Positions 22,222 to 64,000 of a stretch of 64,000 bases of DNA are shown piece after piece (within the stretch, counting starts at the first letter, position 1; every line of letters begins with the position of its first letter). The notes below the pieces were generated by a model. That model saw nothing but the letters and a program-made list of their open reading frames with translations, made no database searches and was not told the DNA's origin. The DNA is from Larkinella humicola (lineage in GTDB: Bacteria > Bacteroidota > Bacteroidia > Cytophagales > Spirosomataceae). The DNA lies in assembly GCF_008727875.1 (NCBI RefSeq), contig NZ_VTWS01000008.1, forward strand, positions 186,001-250,000. Reading direction: 5' to 3'. The position numbers and the translations under genes were made by a program.

Positions 22222-23598
22222 TTAATTCGTGATCGCTGCCAGCAAATCCGCCTGCGTGATGATGTGAACCTGCTGGTTTTCGTCGCGCACCAGCAATGCC
22301 TTGTTGTCGCGGTCGATGAGTGACGACAGCACATCGACGGTGTTGTCGAGCGCCACAAACTTGAACGGTTTGTCCATCACCTCGCCGACGGTGAGGTCTT
22401 TCACGGCAGGGTCTTCAATGAGTTTGCTCAAGATGGTCGAGTCGGTCAGGCTACCGACGATGTCGCCGTTGACTTCGGTCACCGGAATCTGTGAAATGCT
22501 GTGCTGGTTAAGCAACCGGATGGCGTCGCCTACTTTCAGTTCCCGGCCGACGGTTGTCAACACGCCCTTTCCGTTTTTGCTGCGCACAATGTCGCGGGCC
22601 GTCGAAAATTCGCGCGATTCCAGAAAACCGTGGTCTTTCATCCAGGTGTCGTTGTAGATTTTGCCAAGGTAGCGCGTGCCGTGGTCGGGCAGCAGAATGA
22701 TCAGCACATCGTCATCGGTCAGGTGTTCCCGCGCCCATTCCAGCGCCCCGTGCACCGCCGAACCGGTCGACCAGCCGACGAAAAGCCCTTCCTCCTTCGA
22801 CAACCGCCGGGCCATAATGGCCGCGTCTTTGTCGGTCACCTTCACGAAATGGTCGATCAAACTGAAATCGACGTTCTGCGGCAAAATGTCCTCGCCGATG
22901 CCTTCCGTCAGGTACGGATACACCTCGCGCTGGTCGAAAATGCCGGTTTCCTTGTATTTTTTGAACACCGATCCGTAGGTATCGATGCCGACCGTCACCA
23001 CATTTGGATTCTGTTCTTTCAGGAATTTGGCCGTTCCGCAAATCGTCCCGCCCGTTCCGACGCCCGCGGCAAAGTGCGTGATTTTACCGTCGGTATCGCG
23101 CCAGATTTCGGGGCCGGTGGTGTCGTAATGGGCCGCCGTGTTCGAAAGGTTGTCGTATTGGTTGGGGTAAATCGAATTCGGAATTTCGCGGTTCAGGCGT
23201 TTGGCCACGGAGTAATACGAGCGCGGATCGTCGGGCTCCACGTTGGTCGGGCACACCACCACATCGGCACCCACCGCCCGCAGAATGTCGATTTTCTCCT
23301 TCGACTGTTTATCGGCCATCGTAAAAATGCACTTGTAGCCCTTTGCAATGGCCGCCAGCGCCAGGCCAAAACCGGTATTGCCGCTCGTACCTTCGATGAT
23401 GGTGCCGCCCGGCTGGAGGGTTCCGGCCTTCTCCGCGTCCTCGATCATCCGAACGGCGATGCGATCCTTCACCGAGTTGCCGGGATTGAAATACTCGACT
23501 TTCGCCAAAACCGTCCCCCGGATGCCTTGAGTTACCTTATTCAGCTTCACCAGGGGCGTGTCGCCGATGGTATCTATGATGGAATTGTAGTATTTCAT
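22222..23598 (-). CDS. cbs: Cystathionine beta-synthase with C-terminal CBS pair
   Basis: A 458-aa PLP enzyme. Residues 1-320 form the type II fold: DTIGDTPLVKLN, the PLP lysine K44 in NPGNSVKDR, substrate loop EGTSGNTG, phosphate loop GVGTGGT, and ADKQSKEK. Residues about 335-458 are two CBS motifs (ISQIPVTEVNGDIVGSLTD, ALLVRDENQQVHIITQAD), as in cystathionine beta-synthases that condense serine and homocysteine. O-acetylserine-dependent synthase activity cannot be excluded. Its start codon overlaps the stop of the TOPRIM gene upstream (ATGA), so it may now be read from that module's transcript. Confidence 0.88.
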   Translation of the reverse strand: MKYYNSIIDTIGDTPLVKLNKVTQGIRGTVLAKVEYFNPGNSVKDRIAVRMIEDAEKAGTLQPGGTIIEGTSGNTGFGLALAAIAKGYKCIFTMADKQSKEKIDILRAVGADVVVCPTNVEPDDPRSYYSVAKRLNREIPNSIYPNQYDNLSNTAAHYDTTGPEIWRDTDGKITHFAAGVGTGGTICGTAKFLKEQNPNVVTVGIDTYGSVFKKYKETGIFDQREVYPYLTEGIGEDILPQNVDFSLIDHFVKVTDKDAAIMARRLSKEEGLFVGWSTGSAVHGALEWAREHLTDDDVLIILLPDHGTRYLGKIYNDTWMKDHGFLESREFSTARDIVRSKNGKGVLTTVGRELKVGDAIRLLNQHSISQIPVTEVNGDIVGSLTDSTILSKLIEDPAVKDLTVGEVMDKPFKFVALDNTVDVLSSLIDRDNKALLVRDENQQVHIITQADLLAAITN

Positions 23599-24221
23599 GG
23601 TTTTGTGGTGTTGTTGTACGACGCCAGAAAAGTAACGATTTGTTTATGAAAATGGTCAAACGAACGGGATTGTTTCGCGAGTTCGTCAAAATCGGCAGCA
23701 ATAGCTATTTTTTCAGCGACCGTTTCCATCGTTCTTCCATCTTCTTTATTCCCATACAATATTCTCTTTAATTCTCCTTGGGGTTTACTTTCAAGGCTGT
23801 TATTTGCAAACTTATTTGCTTTACCAACTTTGTAAGCTTGATAGCCAAGCCAATGCTCTATTGCTTGCATCGGGACAAATAGAATAATACGATTTTTGTA
23901 CTGACTATAAATTTTTAACTTTATTTTTAGATTTTCACAGACAGCACTATGCAATGGCAACTCGGATTCATGATCAGCTTCATCTAAATCTACTCCTGCA
24001 ATAATTAAGTGATGATTTTGCTGAATGGCTAAGTTGCAAAGTTTACTAGCTTCCTGTAAAACCTTTGATTTGCTTGGTTGCTTACCTTTTAAATCCAGAC
24101 TACTACGAACAACTTGAATATCTACTTTTTCAGCAACTTGGCGTAAATACAATGGAATAAATTTGTATTCAGTATATCCTTCGGCAATAATGGTATAATT
24201 AAGGCGTTTATTGCGTTTCAT
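23595..24221 (-). CDS. TOPRIM-fold nuclease-like partner of an AAA ATPase
   Basis: A 208-aa protein. The start YTIIAEGYTEYKF places Glu14 at the first TOPRIM position, and IIAGVDLDEADHE supplies D78 and D80 as the DxD pair. A further block, VPMQAIEHWLGYQA, recalls the IExWL motif of DUF4276/RloB-type proteins. I cannot decide between those families. TOPRIM proteins beside ABC-type AAA ATPases are typical of split OLD-like defence systems such as PARIS. The start overlaps the ATPase stop by ATGA, and the stop overlaps the cbs start by ATGA. Base composition is AT-rich against GC-rich neighbours, pointing to recent transfer. Confidence 0.7.
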   Translation of the reverse strand: MKRNKRLNYTIIAEGYTEYKFIPLYLRQVAEKVDIQVVRSSLDLKGKQPSKSKVLQEASKLCNLAIQQNHHLIIAGVDLDEADHESELPLHSAVCENLKIKLKIYSQYKNRIILFVPMQAIEHWLGYQAYKVGKANKFANNSLESKPQGELKRILYGNKEDGRTMETVAEKIAIAADFDELAKQSRSFDHFHKQIVTFLASYNNTTKP

Positions 24222-25339
24222 AATTCGTCTTTAGGCACTCCACCAAGTAAACCGTACATCCAGTTCTCTCCCAAATTTTCTATAAAATTGATTCTATCTA
24301 GCCCTAGATCATCGCTTTTTCGATGAGAAGGTTCGATGATTTCTGTTTGTAAGTTTCGGATTTTAGTGTGTCCTTCTTCTTCATCCTTATCAAAAACAAA
24401 AACCGCTTCGGGCATAGACGTGAATTCATTCAAAACATTCTCATTGTGAGAAGTAAGAATGATTTGAATATCTTTTTCATCAGCCAATTGGAAAATAAAC
24501 TTCATTACCTCCCAAATACGACGTGGATGAATACCGCGTTCAGGTTCTTCAAGCAGAAGTAGTTTAGGAGGGTTTGGTTGATTAATAGTACAGAGCAAAG
24601 CCAAAAAATAAAGTACACCTTCCGATACCTCATTCGCCCAATAACCATTTTCATCTTTATCAAAAAATTTCAATCCAATCAAGCTTTCATTGCCTGATTT
24701 CACTGGTGGTGTTGTAAAGAATGAAAACTCAGGAATGCATTTTCTTAAATTCTCTTGAATTTCTATTGCTTTTTTTTTGTAATTATTTTCTATGTAGAAA
24801 TAGAATGAAATGAGATTTGAACAATCGGCTAGTAATTTAGTCTCATCTGCAGAAAACTTAACTGTATGAGAAAATTTTGACGGATCAGGTCGAAAAATCT
24901 TGGTATTAACAAACTCGAAAAATTCACGTTTATCACCTCCATAAGTTAAGGTATCTATCTTGTTATAAGATTTATCCGTAAACCAATCATCATTGAATGA
25001 CTCTATATTCACAAATCCGTCACCGACCTTCACCTCTAAAGTTTGAAGGTAATGATAATTTTCTCTACCTTCTTTCCCATAAGATTTAGTCATGTACTCA
25101 GTTGGATCGGGAGCAAAATCAAATTCATATTTAATCTTCCCCCTTTGATGTTTGTAAGAAACAGCTTCGAAATCAAGTACATTCTGAGAGTTTATACCCC
25201 CTATTGCAAATGACTCCAGCGCCTTCAAAAAATTCGTCTTCCCCGAGTTATTCGGTCCGATCAACAGATTGACTTTCTCAAGATTCAGTTTAACATCTTT
25301 CAGGCTTTTGAAATTCTGGATGGATACGCGTTTTAGCAT
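23599..25339 (-). other. AT-rich two-gene island (candidate defence module)
   Basis: From about 23640 to 25320 the sequence is visibly AT-rich, with long A/T runs and AT-ending codons, in contrast to the GC-rich cbs and epimerase genes on either side. It contains only the ATPase and TOPRIM genes. Its upstream edge is a REP-like bipartite hairpin at 25353-25418. No integrase, tRNA or direct repeat is seen at the borders. Confidence 0.65.
24218..25339 (-). CDS. AAA family ATPase (ABC/SMC-like, OLD-type)
   Basis: A 373-aa protein opening with the SMC/RecF/OLD-type pattern LKRVSIQNFKSLKDVKLNLE and Walker A GPNNSGKT (28-35). The C-terminal half has SEGVLYFLALL in the signature position, Walker B LLLLEEPERGIHP with the Glu pair, and the switch His in LTSHNENVLNE. 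The middle region is variable and could sense a target. There is no fused TOPRIM domain; the neighbouring gene supplies one in trans. Such pairs are known as anti-phage modules (established for PARIS and related OLD systems), so a defence role is a fair inference, though no specific named system is matched. Confidence 0.85.
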   Translation of the reverse strand: MLKRVSIQNFKSLKDVKLNLEKVNLLIGPNNSGKTNFLKALESFAIGGINSQNVLDFEAVSYKHQRGKIKYEFDFAPDPTEYMTKSYGKEGRENYHYLQTLEVKVGDGFVNIESFNDDWFTDKSYNKIDTLTYGGDKREFFEFVNTKIFRPDPSKFSHTVKFSADETKLLADCSNLISFYFYIENNYKKKAIEIQENLRKCIPEFSFFTTPPVKSGNESLIGLKFFDKDENGYWANEVSEGVLYFLALLCTINQPNPPKLLLLEEPERGIHPRRIWEVMKFIFQLADEKDIQIILTSHNENVLNEFTSMPEAVFVFDKDEEEGHTKIRNLQTEIIEPSHRKSDDLGLDRINFIENLGENWMYGLLGGVPKDEL

Positions 25340-25439: not shown

Positions 25440-25856
25440 TTACTCCTTGCTCTCTTTCACTTCCTGACACAACTCCACCAACACGCCGTTCGTCTCTTTC
25501 GGGTGCAGGAAGCAAACCAGCTTGTTGTCGGCACCCCGTTTGGGTGTTTCGTTCAAGGGCGTAAATCCTTCGGTTTTCAGGCGGTCGATTTCGGCGTAGA
25601 TATCCGACACCTCGAAGGCGATGTGGTGGATGCCTTCACCCTTTTTTTCCAGAAACTTCGCAATCGGGCTGTCGGGGTGGGTGGCTTCCAGGAGTTCGAT
25701 CTTGGTCTGGTTTACTTTGAAAAACGAGGTCGTGACCCCCTCCGACTCCACGGCTTCGGCCTTGTACGGTTTTTCGCCCAACAACTTCGTAAACAAGGCA
25801 TTGGAAGCCACCAGGCTCTTCACCGCAATCCCGATATGCTCTACATTTGTCAACAT
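25440..25856 (-). CDS. mce: Methylmalonyl-CoA epimerase
   Basis: About 138 aa, starting at ATG 25856 (MLTNVEHIGIAVKSL); longer in-frame versions run into a repeat and are unlikely. It is a vicinal-oxygen-chelate fold of two repeats: VEHIGIAVKSLVASN with first metal His, IELLEAT with Glu, GIHHIAFEVSDI with second His and GVLVELCQE with the last Glu. These are the four metal ligands of methylmalonyl-CoA epimerase, which links propionyl-CoA and succinyl-CoA metabolism. No mutase gene is in the window. Confidence 0.9.
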   Translation of the reverse strand: MLTNVEHIGIAVKSLVASNALFTKLLGEKPYKAEAVESEGVTTSFFKVNQTKIELLEATHPDSPIAKFLEKKGEGIHHIAFEVSDIYAEIDRLKTEGFTPLNETPKRGADNKLVCFLHPKETNGVLVELCQEVKESKE

Positions 25857-48775: not shown

Positions 48776-49189
48776 TGGATGAGTTGATTTTGGGTTACAC
48801 AAACTCCGGTGGAGGTGGGAAACGGACGTAGCAGCCTTCCCGGATCTACTAGTCCGGTGAGTAGGGTCGATTCATTTCCGTTTGCAAACAGGTTACGCTC
48901 TCGCCGGACACACGTGGCACACAAGCCAGTGTACCGGACGGGCAGATCGGACGCCGTAGACGAGTCGGTATTCGTGTATTTGAAAAACCTGCGGCTGTTA
49001 GTGTGTAGGCCTGGCAGCGGATTGTAAGAAAGTAGTAGCCATGATAACTTGTGGTTAGAAATGGGAAACTCCGTCTGAATTGGTTCCAAACGGCTACTTT
49101 TCTTGCTTGACTGGAAGGGAATAAACAGAGCTGGCGGATAAAGCAAGCCCTGAAAATGTACTGGGAGAGTTACGAAGAATATTCTTTGG

Positions 49190-49221
49190 CAAATTTAGGA
49201 AAAAGCCAATTTTAATGCAAA
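49190..49221 (-). promoter_or_regulatory. Bacteroidota promoter TTTG-N20-TAAATTTG for the susCD operon
   Basis: The minus strand reads TTTG (49221-49218), a 20-nt spacer and TAAATTTG (49197-49190), an exact match to the -33/-7 consensus of Bacteroidota. Transcription would start near 49183, about 408 nt before the susC ATG. Confidence 0.6.
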
Positions 49222-49483
49222 GGAAATGATCAATAATATTTTCTTTTATTTCAATCTTCAACAGTGTTTTTTATTGTTAAAACAAAAATCAGCTTATTAT
49301 TTTCTCCATTCATTCGTTAATAGACGGAATATATTGTACATCGAAACAATTGGATTGATGAGGAGATATATTGGTATTTCCCTGATTGAGCAAAACATAG
49401 TAAACCAAATTTTGCACTATTCTTTTATATTGTTTTTTCTATCTGCGAAAATCATTATTTGTCAAAATTAAAATACGATTAAA

Positions 49484-49514
49484 CTTGACATCGGTTGGAT
49501 TGCTTCTAATATTT
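49484..49514 (+). promoter_or_regulatory. Promoter candidate TTGACA-N16-TAATATTTG for BNR copy B
   Basis: TTGACA at 49484-49489 and TAATAT at 49506-49511, followed by TTG, combine a sigma-70-like -35/-10 pair with a near match to TAnnTTTG. It faces the gene at 49948, about 430 nt away. Confidence 0.35.
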
Positions 49515-49947
49515 GGGAGGAGTTTACGAAATACTTACAAGGCTTACCACCCGATTCCAGCTTCCAGCCGCACTCGAAGCCGGTCTCGAAAAATAGCAGT
49601 TGAAATAACAACTGTATCGGGTTGTCACTGACAATCCTGATCATTCATCATTGATTATTGTAACGGGTTTTTACCGCCCTAACGGATTTTCTGTGTGCAT
49701 TGCCACTCTGGAAGGGGAGCAGCAAAACACACGAAAAGCGGTTTGGATCTGTAAAAGAACCGGAAGACCTTGCTTGATTGGTATACCGGCCCGACTGTCT
49801 CCGACCGACGTGTTATGTGCGGCCTGACCCGGCGTGTTCGGAGCAGTCGTTGCCCGGTGTTTTACCAGAAAATACTTCCCACTGATTTCGTGTTTTTGGG
49901 CACAGACCTGACGTGTACGGGGCAGGCACAACTCTTATCGTTCATTC

Positions 49948-59911: not shown

Positions 59912-61690
59912 TCAGTGAGCCGACTGCAGAGCTTCCAGCGCCCCGGCCAGATACACCAGCGGAGCGTTCCAGTTGATCGCAATTTCATTGGACGCGTAGG
60001 AACAGGACGCATCGATGAACAGCTCATCCGCCGACGTGGCCGTGTAGCCTTCGCACTTGTCCTGTTTCGGTGCATTGCCGTTGGGACCGCCCGACAACAG
60101 GCCCGGAACGGGGGCTTCAATCCCATCGGCTACCGAGGGCCGGTGGTGCGGATTCATGACCGGCTTATCGCCAAAACCGGTGACGAAGCAATAACCGGTG
60201 GCATTGCGGCCCAGCAAATAATCGAAGTTGGTCAGGGCGTTGCGCAGGTATTTTTTGTCGTTCGTCAAGCGATACGCCTGAACCAGCGCAATGCCCTGAT
60301 TGGCCGCGACCGCGCTACTGCCCCAGATGTAATCCTGTGCCGACTTGCCCATGACGGTTTGGTACGCCTGTTTTTCAACGTCACGAATCAGTTCGTCGGC
60401 AAAACCGGTCAGCCGTTTTTTCAGTTGCGGGAGGTCCTGCCGACCCCGTGGCGTCAGGATCTTTTCAAACCGGGCCAGGGTGTAATACCCCAGCAGTCGC
60501 ACCTGCGCCCAGGAAGGCAAGGGCATTTTGTCGTCCGGAAACAGGTTGACCGCCGTATAATAGGCATCGTTCTTCGTGGTTACGTACAATTCGGCGGCAG
60601 CCCAGATCCATTCATCGCTGGCGTCGCGGTCGCCGTATTCGCCGGTGACCACATCTGGATCAAACGCTTCGTTCATCGCATTCTGTCGGTAATACTGGTC
60701 GGGGTTTTTCTTTGCCCAATTCCACGCCCGAACAGCCGCCGTCACACAGGAGTCCGACAAGCCCGGCAATTCCCGACTCAACGGTTTGAAAATCCGCCCG
60801 GCCTGCGCCATCACAGCGGCAAAGTCGAGAGCCGCCGTCACGCTTTTCTGAACGACATACCGCTCCTTCGTAGCTTGGTCGGGCATCACCATGCCGTCGA
60901 ACCGGGCATTGGTTAGTTTGTGGTAGACCCCGCCATCGGCCGGGTCCTGCATGGTCAGCATCCAGCGCAGGTTCCAGAGCGACTCGTCCAGAAGGTCCGG
61001 TATCGCGTTGTCACTTTCGGGAATAGCGGTTTTGAAGGTCTGGCAAAACTGCGGAAAGTCTTCGTAAAGCGCGAGAAGTGTTCCAGTCGTAATCCCCGAA
61101 TTGACAATGTATTTGTTGTAATCTCCGGCATCGTACCACCCTCCCGGCGACGACAGAACCGTACGCGCCGGACGCCCGTCCGAAACCGCCGAAGGATGCA
61201 CCAGCACCTGCGTATCTTCCCGGACATGACCCGCCGGACGGCTCCACGGCCCGGCGTAACGGGCGGGCAAATCCGTCGAAACCCGCTGGTAATAAAAGCC
61301 TTTCAGCGAACCGACGGCGACGGCGCGGTGAACATGGGGTTTGATATCGAAGGGATAGGAATACCCCAGACCGGGAATCAGGACGACAAACGTGCCGGTG
61401 GTTTTCAGCGCGGAGAAATCCGCCGTCCGGGCGGTTTTACCCGAAATCGCATTCTGGCGGGCTTCGCTCAGTTTGCCTTTAAAAACCGTTTTCTTCAAAT
61501 CCGGCGTAATGATCCGGAATTCACCCGAGGCATCGCCAACGACCACCGCAACTTTGGCGGCATTAGGATAAAAACCGACCTGATTCAGGCGGATGTTGGT
61601 GGATAGCGGCTGGTTTTGGGCAAAACCGGCGATCAGTACCAGCAGAAAAAACAACAAAACAGAAAACTGGGCAGGTTTAGGGAATCGCAT
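59912..61690 (-). CDS. Glycoside hydrolase family 9 (endoglucanase-like)
   Basis: A 592-aa protein with a signal peptide (…FFLLVLIAGFAQ). An N-terminal Ig-like CelD_N domain (about 30-115, IRLNQVGFYPNAAKVAVV) leads into the (alpha/alpha)6 barrel. GH9 marks are SSPGGWYDAGDYNKYIVNSG with the two catalytic Asp, NPHHRPSVADG with the active-site His-Arg, and SYASNEIAINWNAPLVYLAGAL with the general-acid Glu. All catalytic residues are present. GH9 enzymes cut beta-1,4-glucans. It is a single gene with no SusCD beside it, so its role in a larger locus is unclear. Confidence 0.93.
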   Translation of the reverse strand: MRFPKPAQFSVLLFFLLVLIAGFAQNQPLSTNIRLNQVGFYPNAAKVAVVVGDASGEFRIITPDLKKTVFKGKLSEARQNAISGKTARTADFSALKTTGTFVVLIPGLGYSYPFDIKPHVHRAVAVGSLKGFYYQRVSTDLPARYAGPWSRPAGHVREDTQVLVHPSAVSDGRPARTVLSSPGGWYDAGDYNKYIVNSGITTGTLLALYEDFPQFCQTFKTAIPESDNAIPDLLDESLWNLRWMLTMQDPADGGVYHKLTNARFDGMVMPDQATKERYVVQKSVTAALDFAAVMAQAGRIFKPLSRELPGLSDSCVTAAVRAWNWAKKNPDQYYRQNAMNEAFDPDVVTGEYGDRDASDEWIWAAAELYVTTKNDAYYTAVNLFPDDKMPLPSWAQVRLLGYYTLARFEKILTPRGRQDLPQLKKRLTGFADELIRDVEKQAYQTVMGKSAQDYIWGSSAVAANQGIALVQAYRLTNDKKYLRNALTNFDYLLGRNATGYCFVTGFGDKPVMNPHHRPSVADGIEAPVPGLLSGGPNGNAPKQDKCEGYTATSADELFIDASCSYASNEIAINWNAPLVYLAGALEALQSAH

Positions 61691-61706
61691 GGACGTAGGT
61701 TTTAGT

Positions 61707-61714
61707 CAAATCTA
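61707..61714 (-). promoter_or_regulatory. -7 element TAGATTTG for the GH9 gene
   Basis: The minus strand carries an exact TAnnTTTG match 17 nt before the GH9 start codon, implying a very short leader. No -33 element is evident. Confidence 0.35.
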
Positions 61715-61795
61715 CAACGATTCCGGGCGTTTAGGGCTTTTTCAGGTTCAAATTGGATGAGAAAGCAGGCTTTGAACCCGATTCGTATCCATTCC

Positions 61796-62353
61796 TTAAA
61801 CCGCCCCTACATACTCTTTCAAATGACACCGGAGCGTTCGCAGCGATTGCATGATGTGGTATTCGACGGTTCGTTCCGGGATGCAAAGCTGAGCCGAAAT
61901 TTCACGAACGGAGTGGTTTTCCATCCGGTTCAGCCGGAAAATCTGCCGGGTTTTATCGGGCAGATGCGCAATGCCTGACTCCAGAGCCTTGGTCAGATCA
62001 TCGTAAGCCAGCAAATCTTCGGTATGGCAGTCGTGGTCGGACAGGCTGGCAATCTTGAAATTTTCGTATTTCTGCCGAATCAACAGGGCTTTGATGTGAT
62101 TCAGTATTTTGTATTTGACCGCTCCAAATAAATATTTCTTCAGGTCTTCAATCTGAATGATCTCCCGCCGTTCCCACAAGTCGACGAAAAGGTCCTGAAC
62201 CAGTTCCTCAGCGTTCTCCTGCGAATACAATTTCTTCCGGGCCACCCCAAAAAGTGGATGCCAGTATTTGCGGTAAATCGCCTGAAAAGCCTCTTCGTCC
62301 CCAGTTTGGAAGAGTTTTACCAAAACGGCATCACATAAAACCGAGTAGTCCAT
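61796..62353 (-). CDS. ECF-type RNA polymerase sigma factor (Bacteroidota FecI-like)
   Basis: About 185 aa from ATG 62353 (MDYSVLCDAVLVKLF). Region 2 reads EAFQAIYRKYWHPLFGVARKKL and AEELVQDLFVDLWERREII; region 4 reads LPDKTRQIFRLNRMENHSVREI and AQLCIPERTVEYHIMQSLRTL. This is the RpoE/SigK-like group typical of Bacteroidota, where such sigma factors are held by FecR anti-sigma proteins and switched by SusC receptors with an N-terminal signalling domain. The divergent gene downstream encodes a FecR-like stump and a SusC. Confidence 0.92.
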   Translation of the reverse strand: MDYSVLCDAVLVKLFQTGDEEAFQAIYRKYWHPLFGVARKKLYSQENAEELVQDLFVDLWERREIIQIEDLKKYLFGAVKYKILNHIKALLIRQKYENFKIASLSDHDCHTEDLLAYDDLTKALESGIAHLPDKTRQIFRLNRMENHSVREISAQLCIPERTVEYHIMQSLRTLRCHLKEYVGAV

Positions 62354-62728
62354 AGAAGATAGCGATAGTGGGTCTGCCTGAACATTTTTGCGGAGGATAC
62401 TCCCCAAAAAGAATAAATTATTATTCTAAGATTCCCATTTTATGCCTGCACGCTATCCTGTACTTACCTGTGTTTACGTACCCGTAAAATGAGTCGCATT
62501 AAGCCAGCACTTGGTTTCGTCCTATTTTAGTTTGGCATTTTCTTACCGGCTGGGCGTAGCCTCTAGCCCCCTCCTATAACAAAACAAAGAATTTTTAGGA
62601 ATTCCTGTCACAATAATATAAATATTTAATTATTTAACAGTACGATTTGCGGTTTCTCTTTTCAAGATTGACGTAACGGTATAGTCAATCCTTTTCCTCT
62701 ACCAACGATTCCGGGTTTGTGACTGAGA
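62354..62728. other. 375-nt divergent gap between sigma factor and FecR-like gene
   Basis: No gene is seen. The middle (62590-62640) is AT-rich, ending in TACGATTTG (62642-62650), which has one base too many for the TAnnTTTG consensus. Confidence 0.4.
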
Positions 62729-62980
62729 ATGCAAACGAATCACAAAAGCTTTTTGGAACTGCTTCAGCGCTACATGGATGGCGTCTGTTCATCTGAAGAA
62801 AAACAGATGATGGACTATTGGTATAGTTTGCTGGATCAGGATCACGAAGAAAAAACCGGTAGCCTTTCCAGACAGCAACTGGAGGAACTGCTCTGGACGA
62901 AAATTCAGCACCGGGTTCAGCGGGAAAACGAAACTGATACTCACACAATCAATCTCAAATGGTGGCAGCATGACGGATAA
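62729..62980 (+). pseudogene. Truncated FecR-type anti-sigma factor, N-terminal part only
   Basis: 83 codons from ATG 62729. The sequence FLELLQRYMDGVCSSEEKQMMDYWYSLLDQ and LSRQQLEELLWTKIQHRVQ resembles the cytoplasmic sigma-binding N-terminus of Bacteroidota FecR proteins. A full FecR is about 300-380 aa and goes on to a transmembrane helix and periplasmic FecR domain; both are missing here, since the frame stops at 62978-62980 and a SusC gene begins at 63199. It may be a decayed gene or a soluble anti-sigma. The position between ECF sigma and SusC supports the FecR reading. Confidence 0.55.
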
Positions 62981-63050
62981 AGCCCAGTTGCTCCAAGACC
63001 TTTTCCTTTTTTTCACTAAACCCAAGACCTATGCGTACGACCCTCTACCG

Positions 63051-63146
63051 ATGCCCCCGAAAGTGGCCCAACCGATTCTGATCGGCTCCGCCATGATTTG
63101 CTCTTTTCCGTTGAATCAAGCACCGAACTTTCTGACTGTAAGCTAG
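63051..63146 (+). other. Short frame, possible relic of a signal peptide
   Basis: A 31-codon frame reads MPPKVAQPILIGSAMICSFP, then LNQAPNFLTVS and stop. It looks like a hydrophobic secretion-signal-like segment cut short just before the SusC gene. An overlapping frame from 63031 begins MRTTLYRCPRK. It could be debris from a deletion that also removed most of FecR. Weak evidence. Confidence 0.2.
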
Positions 63147-63198
63147 TTCGTAAACAGCAAAAAATTACCCATTGTTCTACTTCCTTAACAAAAAAGCA

Positions 63199-64000
63199 AT
63201 GAAAAAACGCTTACAATTCATACCCATACCGGGTACTTTCATTCGGGCTTCGCTCCTGTTGTGCCTGTTGATGCTGGCCGTAACGGGTCTGTATGCGAAT
63301 GAAAATGCCCCCCTCGACCGGCCCATCACCGGCACCGTTAAAGATGAAAAAGGCGAAGGATTGCCAGGTGTCAGTGTCGTGCTGAAGGGCTCCACCAAAG
63401 GAACGTCCACCAATGCCGACGGCAGCTACCGCCTGGATGTTCCGGAGAACAACGCCACCCTGATTTTCTCCTTTGTCGGCTACCTGTCCAAAGAAATTTC
63501 GGTTGGCAACCAGACCCGTGTCGATGTTCAACTGGCGACCGACAACAAGGCACTCGAAGAAGTGGTTGTTGTGGGGTACGGTTCACAGCGGAAGCAGGAT
63601 ATTACCTCCGCCGTCTCGGTGATCAGCATGAAAGACATCGGCGAGCAGCCTTCCAACAACATGAACCAGTTGTTGCAGGGCCGGGCCGCGGGTGTGGTCG
63701 TAAAATCGAAGAGCGGTGCGCCCGGCGGTGTCTTCGAGGTGCGGGTTCGGGGTGTCGGTTCGTTGGGGGCCGGTAGCAATCCGCTGTATGTCATCGACGG
63801 TTTTGCCGTCGGAACCGACGTTGGACAAAACCTGAACCCGAACGACATCGAGAGCATTTCCGTCCTGAAAGATGCCGCTTCGACGGCTATTTATGGAGCC
63901 AGAGGTTCCAACGGGGTGGTTTTGATTACGACGAAGAATGCTAAAGAAGGAAAAACGAACATCAACTTTTCGCTTGATTACGGGATTCAGTCGCTTCCAA
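63199..64000 (+). CDS. SusC/RagA-family TonB-linked outer-membrane protein, 3' truncated by window
   Basis: The first 267 codons are present. A signal peptide (…LLLCLLMLAVTGLYAN, ending near residue 35) is followed by the regulatory-like domain GTVKDEKGEGLPGVSVVLKG, VVVVGYGSQRKQDITSAVSV and the plug with MNQLLQGRAAGVVVKSKSGA, LYVIDGFAVG and AASTAIYGARGSNGV. It lacks the N-terminal secretin/TonB signalling domain that would be needed to talk to a FecR/ECF pair, at least in the visible part. This fits the idea that the adjacent FecR is no longer functional. Confidence 0.93.
   Translation, partial: MKKRLQFIPIPGTFIRASLLLCLLMLAVTGLYANENAPLDRPITGTVKDEKGEGLPGVSVVLKGSTKGTSTNADGSYRLDVPENNATLIFSFVGYLSKEISVGNQTRVDVQLATDNKALEEVVVVGYGSQRKQDITSAVSVISMKDIGEQPSNNMNQLLQGRAAGVVVKSKSGAPGGVFEVRVRGVGSLGAGSNPLYVIDGFAVGTDVGQNLNPNDIESISVLKDAASTAIYGARGSNGVVLITTKNAKEGKTNINFSLDYGIQSLP

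Follow-up and report, generated by a model that had tools for sequence, protein, structure and literature searches.

A conserved two-gene ATPase/TOPRIM locus with an exchanged ATPase middle in Larkinella, Spirosoma and relatives: a candidate immune module

What is a pair of AT-rich genes, one for an ATPase and one for a predicted TOPRIM nuclease, doing among metabolic-looking genes of a bacterial chromosome? The pair lies in a stretch of 64,000 nucleotides from Larkinella humicola (contig NZ_VTWS01000008.1, positions 186,001 to 250,000), called the window below, between a gene that we take to be cbs (a name used in an earlier note on this DNA) and a presumed mcee-like gene of the methylmalonyl-CoA epimerase type. 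The earlier note, made from the window alone, read the pair as an anti-phage module without a clear equal among named systems, marked as a foreign insertion by its AT-richness and driving cbs. We suggest that the pair is probably a split OLD-type, HEC-01-like two-gene immune module at a conserved mcee-cbs site, with the middle of the ATPase serving as a sensor cassette. The exchange of this middle among relatives is not visible from one sequence and is the interesting part of the locus. HEC stands for Hma-embedded candidate (PMC12988326, PMC12111858).

With one genome per species sampled, 33 loci with a full ATPase, TOPRIM gene and cbs were compared in 528 pairs (L114, with cbs cut by a contig end, was excluded; handles with G and L are our numbers for genomes and loci). 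Mean pairwise identity along the ATPase is 0.94 for residues 9–44, 0.15 for 45–140, 0.45 for 141–235 and 0.72 for 236–373; it is 0.37 for the TOPRIM protein and 0.87 for CBS. L113, with a broken TOPRIM gene, was included in the identity statistics, permutations and third-position comparison and left out of the trees and final rank correlations, and values hardly change without it (0.94, 0.14, 0.44 and 0.72; TOPRIM 0.36; CBS 0.87). RecF, an ATPase with the same type of head, has no middle dip in 27 of these genomes used as a control (0.86 for residues 1–44, 0.79 for 45–235 and 0.81 from 236 to the end), and in the same genomes the four blocks of the pair's ATPase give 0.93, 0.14, 0.43 and 0.72. 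The control started from 30 genomes, from which one without a match, one partial sequence (L248) and one that failed the frame/motif check (L229) were removed. Five Hymenobacter loci at other sites repeat the block pattern (0.81, 0.19, 0.48 and 0.85; 10 pairs, excluding L158 with its 9 stops). Third-codon-position identity is 0.62 in the ATPase N-terminal block versus 0.50 in cbs, and 0.33–0.41 in the other ATPase segments and the TOPRIM gene. By rank correlation of identities, the ATPase C-terminus follows the TOPRIM protein (0.80; reached by 0/999 permutations), and correlation is near zero for residues 45–140 with TOPRIM (0.02), for the ATPase middle with CBS (0.09; 79/999) and for TOPRIM with CBS (0.01; 180/999). 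Small correlations that exceed most permutations occur between the C-terminus and CBS (0.15; 10/999) and between residues 141–235 and the C-terminus (0.23; 0/999). By these comparisons, the ATPase C-terminus and the TOPRIM protein diverge together.

Close relatives provide a base-by-base view of the exchange. Larkinella sp. C7 (G002) and G006 have CBS proteins that are 99% identical and TOPRIM proteins that are 96% identical, with 10% identity in ATPase residues 45–140. Their DNA identity is 82–100% up to codon 43, 33–60% over codons 44–238, 69% over 239–253 and 93% from 254, beyond which it stays at 84–100% through the TOPRIM gene into cbs, except for one bin at 62%; the left border of the exchange is sharp and the right border graded. 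The pairs of loci L032/L033 and L087/L098 combine TOPRIM identities of 94–96% with 10–12% in residues 45–140, and of the 32 pairs whose TOPRIM proteins reach an identity of 0.70 or more (these pairs share loci), 25 fall below 0.25 in that block. When 40% identity defines a middle type and 60% a TOPRIM type, 50 ATPases represent 24 middle types and 49 TOPRIM proteins 18 types. In Larkinella and Spirosoma, five TOPRIM types accompany the middle type of the window, and a single TOPRIM type combines with six middle types across three genera. Quick trees built with a simple model for 32 loci place the six pair-bearing Larkinella together for CBS (support 100), and this clade is rejected by TOPRIM, the ATPase middle and the ATPase C-terminus (p-AU 1.8e-5, 5.7e-5 and 8.4e-11, respectively). 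Judged from these alignments and trees, the ATPase middle (about codons 44–250) is replaced en bloc, almost irrespective of the TOPRIM partner and of species. Over the final ~80 bp of the TOPRIM gene, the three closest congeners rise to 90–100% DNA identity with the window (60–62% in L036 and L037); a second exchange edge may therefore lie near the 3' end of this gene.

The family search covered 222 genomes, with the ATPase sought at E ≤ 1e-30 among at most 8 scored candidates in each genome, and cbs at E ≤ 1e-180. The ATPase occurs in 54 genomes with a single match each, cbs of this type in 71 and both in 41, in 35 of which the ATPase lies upstream of cbs within the stretch examined. Counted by locus (54, window included), cbs is found downstream in the fetched stretch at 36; the additional one is G231, where a contig end truncates cbs and which does not count among the 71 cbs genomes. 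At 22 of these 36 loci cbs lies within 60 bp or overlaps, 13 have the 4-nt TOPRIM/cbs overlap, and two are broken copies (L113 and L120). All nine Larkinella genomes have cbs and six have the pair at mcee-cbs; G004 and G008 retain only the TOPRIM gene 3' end in front of cbs, and mcee directly precedes cbs in G007. Two pair-less genomes (L039 and L218) have cbs directly behind mcee, and the pair therefore lies within a co-directional mcee-cbs array. The link to cbs is most simply this shared array: the overlap recurs, yet pair-less species keep cbs, and the idea that the module drives it finds no support.

Thirty cbs genomes have no ATPase match, including G186 with an apparently full-length TOPRIM gene and an ATPase end at a contig edge. 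The region upstream of cbs was examined in 22 of the other 29, over at most 8 kb, with shorter stretches near contig ends (G021, G201–G205 and G242 lie outside this comparison). Pair fragments are kept at eight of these 22 loci (G004, G008, G012, G033, G210, G222, G224 and G235; seen as DNA only in G033 and weak, at 5.4e-5, in G222), and no fragment was found at the other 14. The fragment beside cbs in G224 derives from the ATPase rather than the TOPRIM gene; in G004, G008, G033 and G235 the last ~29 TOPRIM codons persist beside cbs after loss of the rest. A sigma-70-type scan found no promoter site in the retained 3' end, and inspection by eye for a Bacteroidota-type motif gave nothing claimable. 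Broken copies include L113 (TOPRIM frame of 19 aa), L120 (ATPase in two pieces) and L158 (ATPase with 9 stops).

Away from cbs, the pair occurs in six of the 41 genomes with both genes: G016, G164 and G165, which belong to one genus, and the Spirosoma genomes G206, G220 and G226. In these Spirosoma genomes (loci L098, L122 and L087) the upstream neighbours are those of other Spirosoma, but the downstream neighbourhood is different, and cbs is located ~13.5–14 kb away beyond the upstream side of the pair, in the same orientation, which represents a shared rearrangement. In Runella and the Arcicella group, neither of which has a match to this cbs, the pair occupies other sites, as it does in the Hymenobacter stretches fetched. 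Runella L103, L107 and L115 share one site and L090, L097 and L102 of the Arcicella group another, neither of which is the cbs locus. The two-gene order is unchanged in pairs away from the cbs locus. A small opposite-strand gene, secreted-looking by eye, sits between the pair and cbs at 11 Spirosoma loci (L082, L083, L091, L092, L095, L100, L104–L106, L113 and L119).

The ATPase gene has a lower GC than cbs in 34/34 loci measured, with ranges of 0.31–0.45 (n = 50) for the ATPase and 0.48–0.59 (n = 36) for cbs. A recent AT-rich acquisition was rejected, with the pair AT-rich in every locus measured. A recent insertion or mobile element was also rejected: the same locus recurs across genera, the window has no tRNA gene and only weak two-copy repeats occur near the pair, although no integrase/transposase search was made. 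The conserved site, the fragments and the low GC everywhere indicate that the locus is old in Larkinella, Spirosoma and their relatives and has undergone turnover and decay, and that low GC is a lasting property. AT-richness thus loses the meaning of a foreign mark that the earlier note gave it, with the pair at the locus in six of nine Larkinella genomes and fragments in two more. The same note had named conservation across the genus with normal GC as grounds for giving up its reading; the locus proves largely conserved and its GC is not normal.

The ATPase matches the Pfam families AAA_15 (2.5e-23) and AAA_21 (1.3e-22) beyond chance. Its top model in the PADLOC library is HEC-01A (1.7e-38), which matches at 1e-10 all 49 aligned ATPases (48/48 usable references plus the window; L117, L120, L125 and L127 lack a full ATPase); PARIS AriA models also match, with a best value of 3.8e-24, and score below HEC-01A. 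The partner is harder to name. The window protein passes DUF4276 narrowly (4e-7; 30.9 bits versus a gathering cut-off of 30.2), and just 15 of 48 aligned partners (47/51 references plus the window; L106, L115, L117 and L120 excluded) match that family at E ≤ 0.01. HEC-01B is its best PADLOC model, weak at 6.9e-5, and model PDLC04210 for HEC-01B matches 19/48 at E ≤ 0.01. As the earlier note had proposed, neither DUF4435 nor RloB (PF13707) matches the window protein at E ≤ 1; at E ≤ 0.01, DUF4435 is absent among the 48 sequences and RloB matches two. TOPRIM domains have a glutamate after strand 1 and a DxD motif after strand 3 in a beta-alpha order. The corresponding acids, E14, D78 and D80, do not vary across the 48 aligned sequences, and the predicted strands (5–12, 35–39, 72–76 and 112–115) and helices (16–31, 51–67 and 89–101) follow in an order that agrees with an OLD-type TOPRIM fold. 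Plain Foldseek with the TOPRIM model returned nothing at E ≤ 0.001, and a sequence search of solved structures retrieved only ankyrin, designed proteins and similar entries, none better than E 0.13. OLD chains top a VIA re-ranking, with four of five tied with unrelated rows, and residues 5–207 of the model align with the OLD C-terminal (TOPRIM) region. By these comparisons, the partner has a TOPRIM-like fold with complete catalytic residues, and nuclease activity is predicted for it.

Table 1. Positions of the ATPase/TOPRIM pair, its segments and its neighbours in the window
Feature	Positions	Strand	Description
ATPase gene, 373 aa	24218..25339	-	AAA_15/AAA_21, OLD/SMC-type ABC head, PADLOC HEC-01A-like
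ATPase codons 1–44, conserved block with Walker A GPNNSGKT	25208..25339	-	residues 9–44 mean pairwise identity 94%
ATPase codons 45–235, exchanged middle, proposed sensor cassette	24635..25207	-	identity 15% (45–140) and 45% (141–235)
ATPase codons 236–373 and stop, conserved block with Walker B LLLLEEPERG	24218..24634	-	tracks TOPRIM divergence, rho 0.80
TOPRIM partner, 208 aa	23595..24221	-	Pfam DUF4276; E14, D78, D80 invariant in 48 aligned sequences
TOPRIM gene 3' end, last ~29 codons	23595..23683	-	DNA 90–100% identical in three closest congeners
cbs (presumed), downstream neighbour	22222..23598	-	4-nt overlap with TOPRIM gene
mcee-like gene (presumed), upstream co-directional neighbour	25440..25856	-	methylmalonyl-CoA epimerase type

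The open reading frames in Table 1, the Walker motifs, the positions of the three acids and the two 4-nt ATGA overlaps (ATPase/TOPRIM gene and TOPRIM gene/cbs) are as first noted, and both genes of the pair are much more AT-rich, at 35% GC each versus 56% for cbs. Two more low-GC stretches (GC ~0.41–0.47) occur in the window, at 48803–49947 between two large open reading frames and at ~61500–63500, the latter containing an open reading frame judged by eye to be sigma-factor-like (61796–62407).

A defence role is inferred from homology, patchy presence with decay, and diversification. By secondary structure the exchanged middle carries the outer beta-sheet and arm helices of the ATPase head. 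In PARIS, the TOPRIM nuclease AriB stays bound to the ATPase AriA until AriA encounters a phage protein and frees it, and AriB cuts tRNA-Lys (PMC11455837). Our proposal is made by analogy with AriA/AriB. The conserved ATPase blocks would form the ATP site, with which the core would bind ATP, and the C-terminal half would hold the TOPRIM nuclease, with co-divergence suggesting the likely interface. The exchanged middle would be the likely sensor of a phage trigger, the binding of which would free or activate the nuclease; the freed enzyme could then cut tRNA or DNA and stop the infected cell, as in PARIS. A swap of the middle would change recognition, and the killing part and locus would stay. 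A wider proposal, which could equally well hold or fail, is that this is a combinatorial immune locus in which recombination across species and genera reassorts a sensor segment (ATPase codons ~44–250) and an effector segment (ATPase C-terminus plus TOPRIM), with near-invariant Walker A and B blocks as exchange joints, similar to the constant and variable parts of antibodies or HsdS.

Other explanations of the same locus need to be considered. The pair could be a housekeeping ATPase-nuclease for DNA maintenance tied to cbs/mcee metabolism, with no defence role. Its conserved neighbourhood, the recurrent cbs overlap (13/36 loci) and the single match per genome fit this idea, as does the precedent of Cran1, an archaeal member of the OLD family that is reported to act in the cell cycle (PMC12796447). 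However, the ATPase is present in only 54/222 family genomes, and has been lost with fragments remaining at 8/22 examined loci, and the pair has broken copies in L113, L120 and L158; divergence is far faster than that of CBS and not tree-like, and pairs away from the cbs locus retain the two-gene order, which together make a housekeeping role unlikely. The same diversity could alternatively reflect a toxin-antitoxin or addiction module, with the ATPase as antitoxin and TOPRIM as toxin, in which variability means mutual incompatibility rather than phage sensing. PARIS itself has been so described (PMC11455837), and the co-divergence of the ATPase C-terminus with TOPRIM (rho 0.80) is compatible with such a bond. 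This explanation, which we consider quite unlikely, leaves unexplained why the middle varies most and does so nearly independently of TOPRIM (rho 0.02), and why one copy sits at a conserved chromosomal site.

It is also conceivable that the middle was never exchanged and simply drifts fast under weak constraint. Large distances separate most genomes, long parts of the middle can barely be aligned, residues 141–235 keep weak homology, the right edge is graded, and outer lobes of ABC heads are generally less conserved. Drift is nevertheless highly unlikely when TOPRIM proteins that are 94–96% identical accompany middles at 10–12%, when the left edge is abrupt at codon 43 in the pair examined base by base, when one middle type is found with differing TOPRIM types in different genera, and when RecF lacks such a dip. 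An immune module with an exchangeable sensor remains our preferred reading. The earlier defence reading survives in part: the pairing of an OLD/SMC-type ATPase and a distinct TOPRIM-fold protein is supported, and the top PADLOC models are candidate defence proteins; the lack of a named equal, foreign origin and the driving of cbs are not supported.

The sensing part of OLD-like and PARIS-like ATPases is, to our knowledge, known for few systems. Nature has apparently repeated a domain-swap experiment at a single site, each swap region having a sharp left border in the pair inspected base by base, and natural chimeras are at hand for mapping trigger specificity, together with a testable rule that separates sensor from effector parts. 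Exchange of the middle may alter what the system recognizes. These findings suggest that defence modules are not necessarily mobile islands and can exist as alleles at a conserved site of the core genome, and that low GC need not signal recent arrival.

Within the open-access literature searched, neither DUF4276 nor HEC-01 together with PADLOC is mentioned; a limited search by title and abstract start yielded no swapped or hypervariable sensor in ATPase/TOPRIM defence and nothing matching for Larkinella or Spirosoma defence. HEC-04 and HEC-06 are named as active (PMC12988326, PMC12111858). HEC-01, itself a candidate system of an ATPase and a TOPRIM protein, has two separate genes, A and B, and provides the best PADLOC models for both window proteins by E value, PADLOC's own thresholds and system rule aside, so that the pair is closer to a named system than was first thought. 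It differs in the weak TOPRIM match and in the conserved site of the window pair beside metabolic-looking genes. PARIS likewise has an ABC ATPase and a TOPRIM nuclease as separate proteins, and its AriA models match the window ATPase, although below HEC-01A; the TOPRIM partner lacks the DUF4435 match (E ≤ 1) of the AriB type, and membership of PARIS on this basis was rejected. PARIS is further characterized by activation through Ocr-like anti-restriction proteins. OLD family nucleases, including GajA, share the OLD-type ATPase head and an OLD-like TOPRIM region, but in one gene rather than two. Type I restriction specificity subunits (HsdS) have a conserved frame and an exchangeable recognition part. 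A variable recognition part is also reported for DGR-diversified sensors (PMC10907252). The Larkinella and Spirosoma locus shares with both a conserved frame around an exchangeable or variable, putatively recognizing part, and differs from both in that the exchanged part lies inside an ABC-type ATPase.

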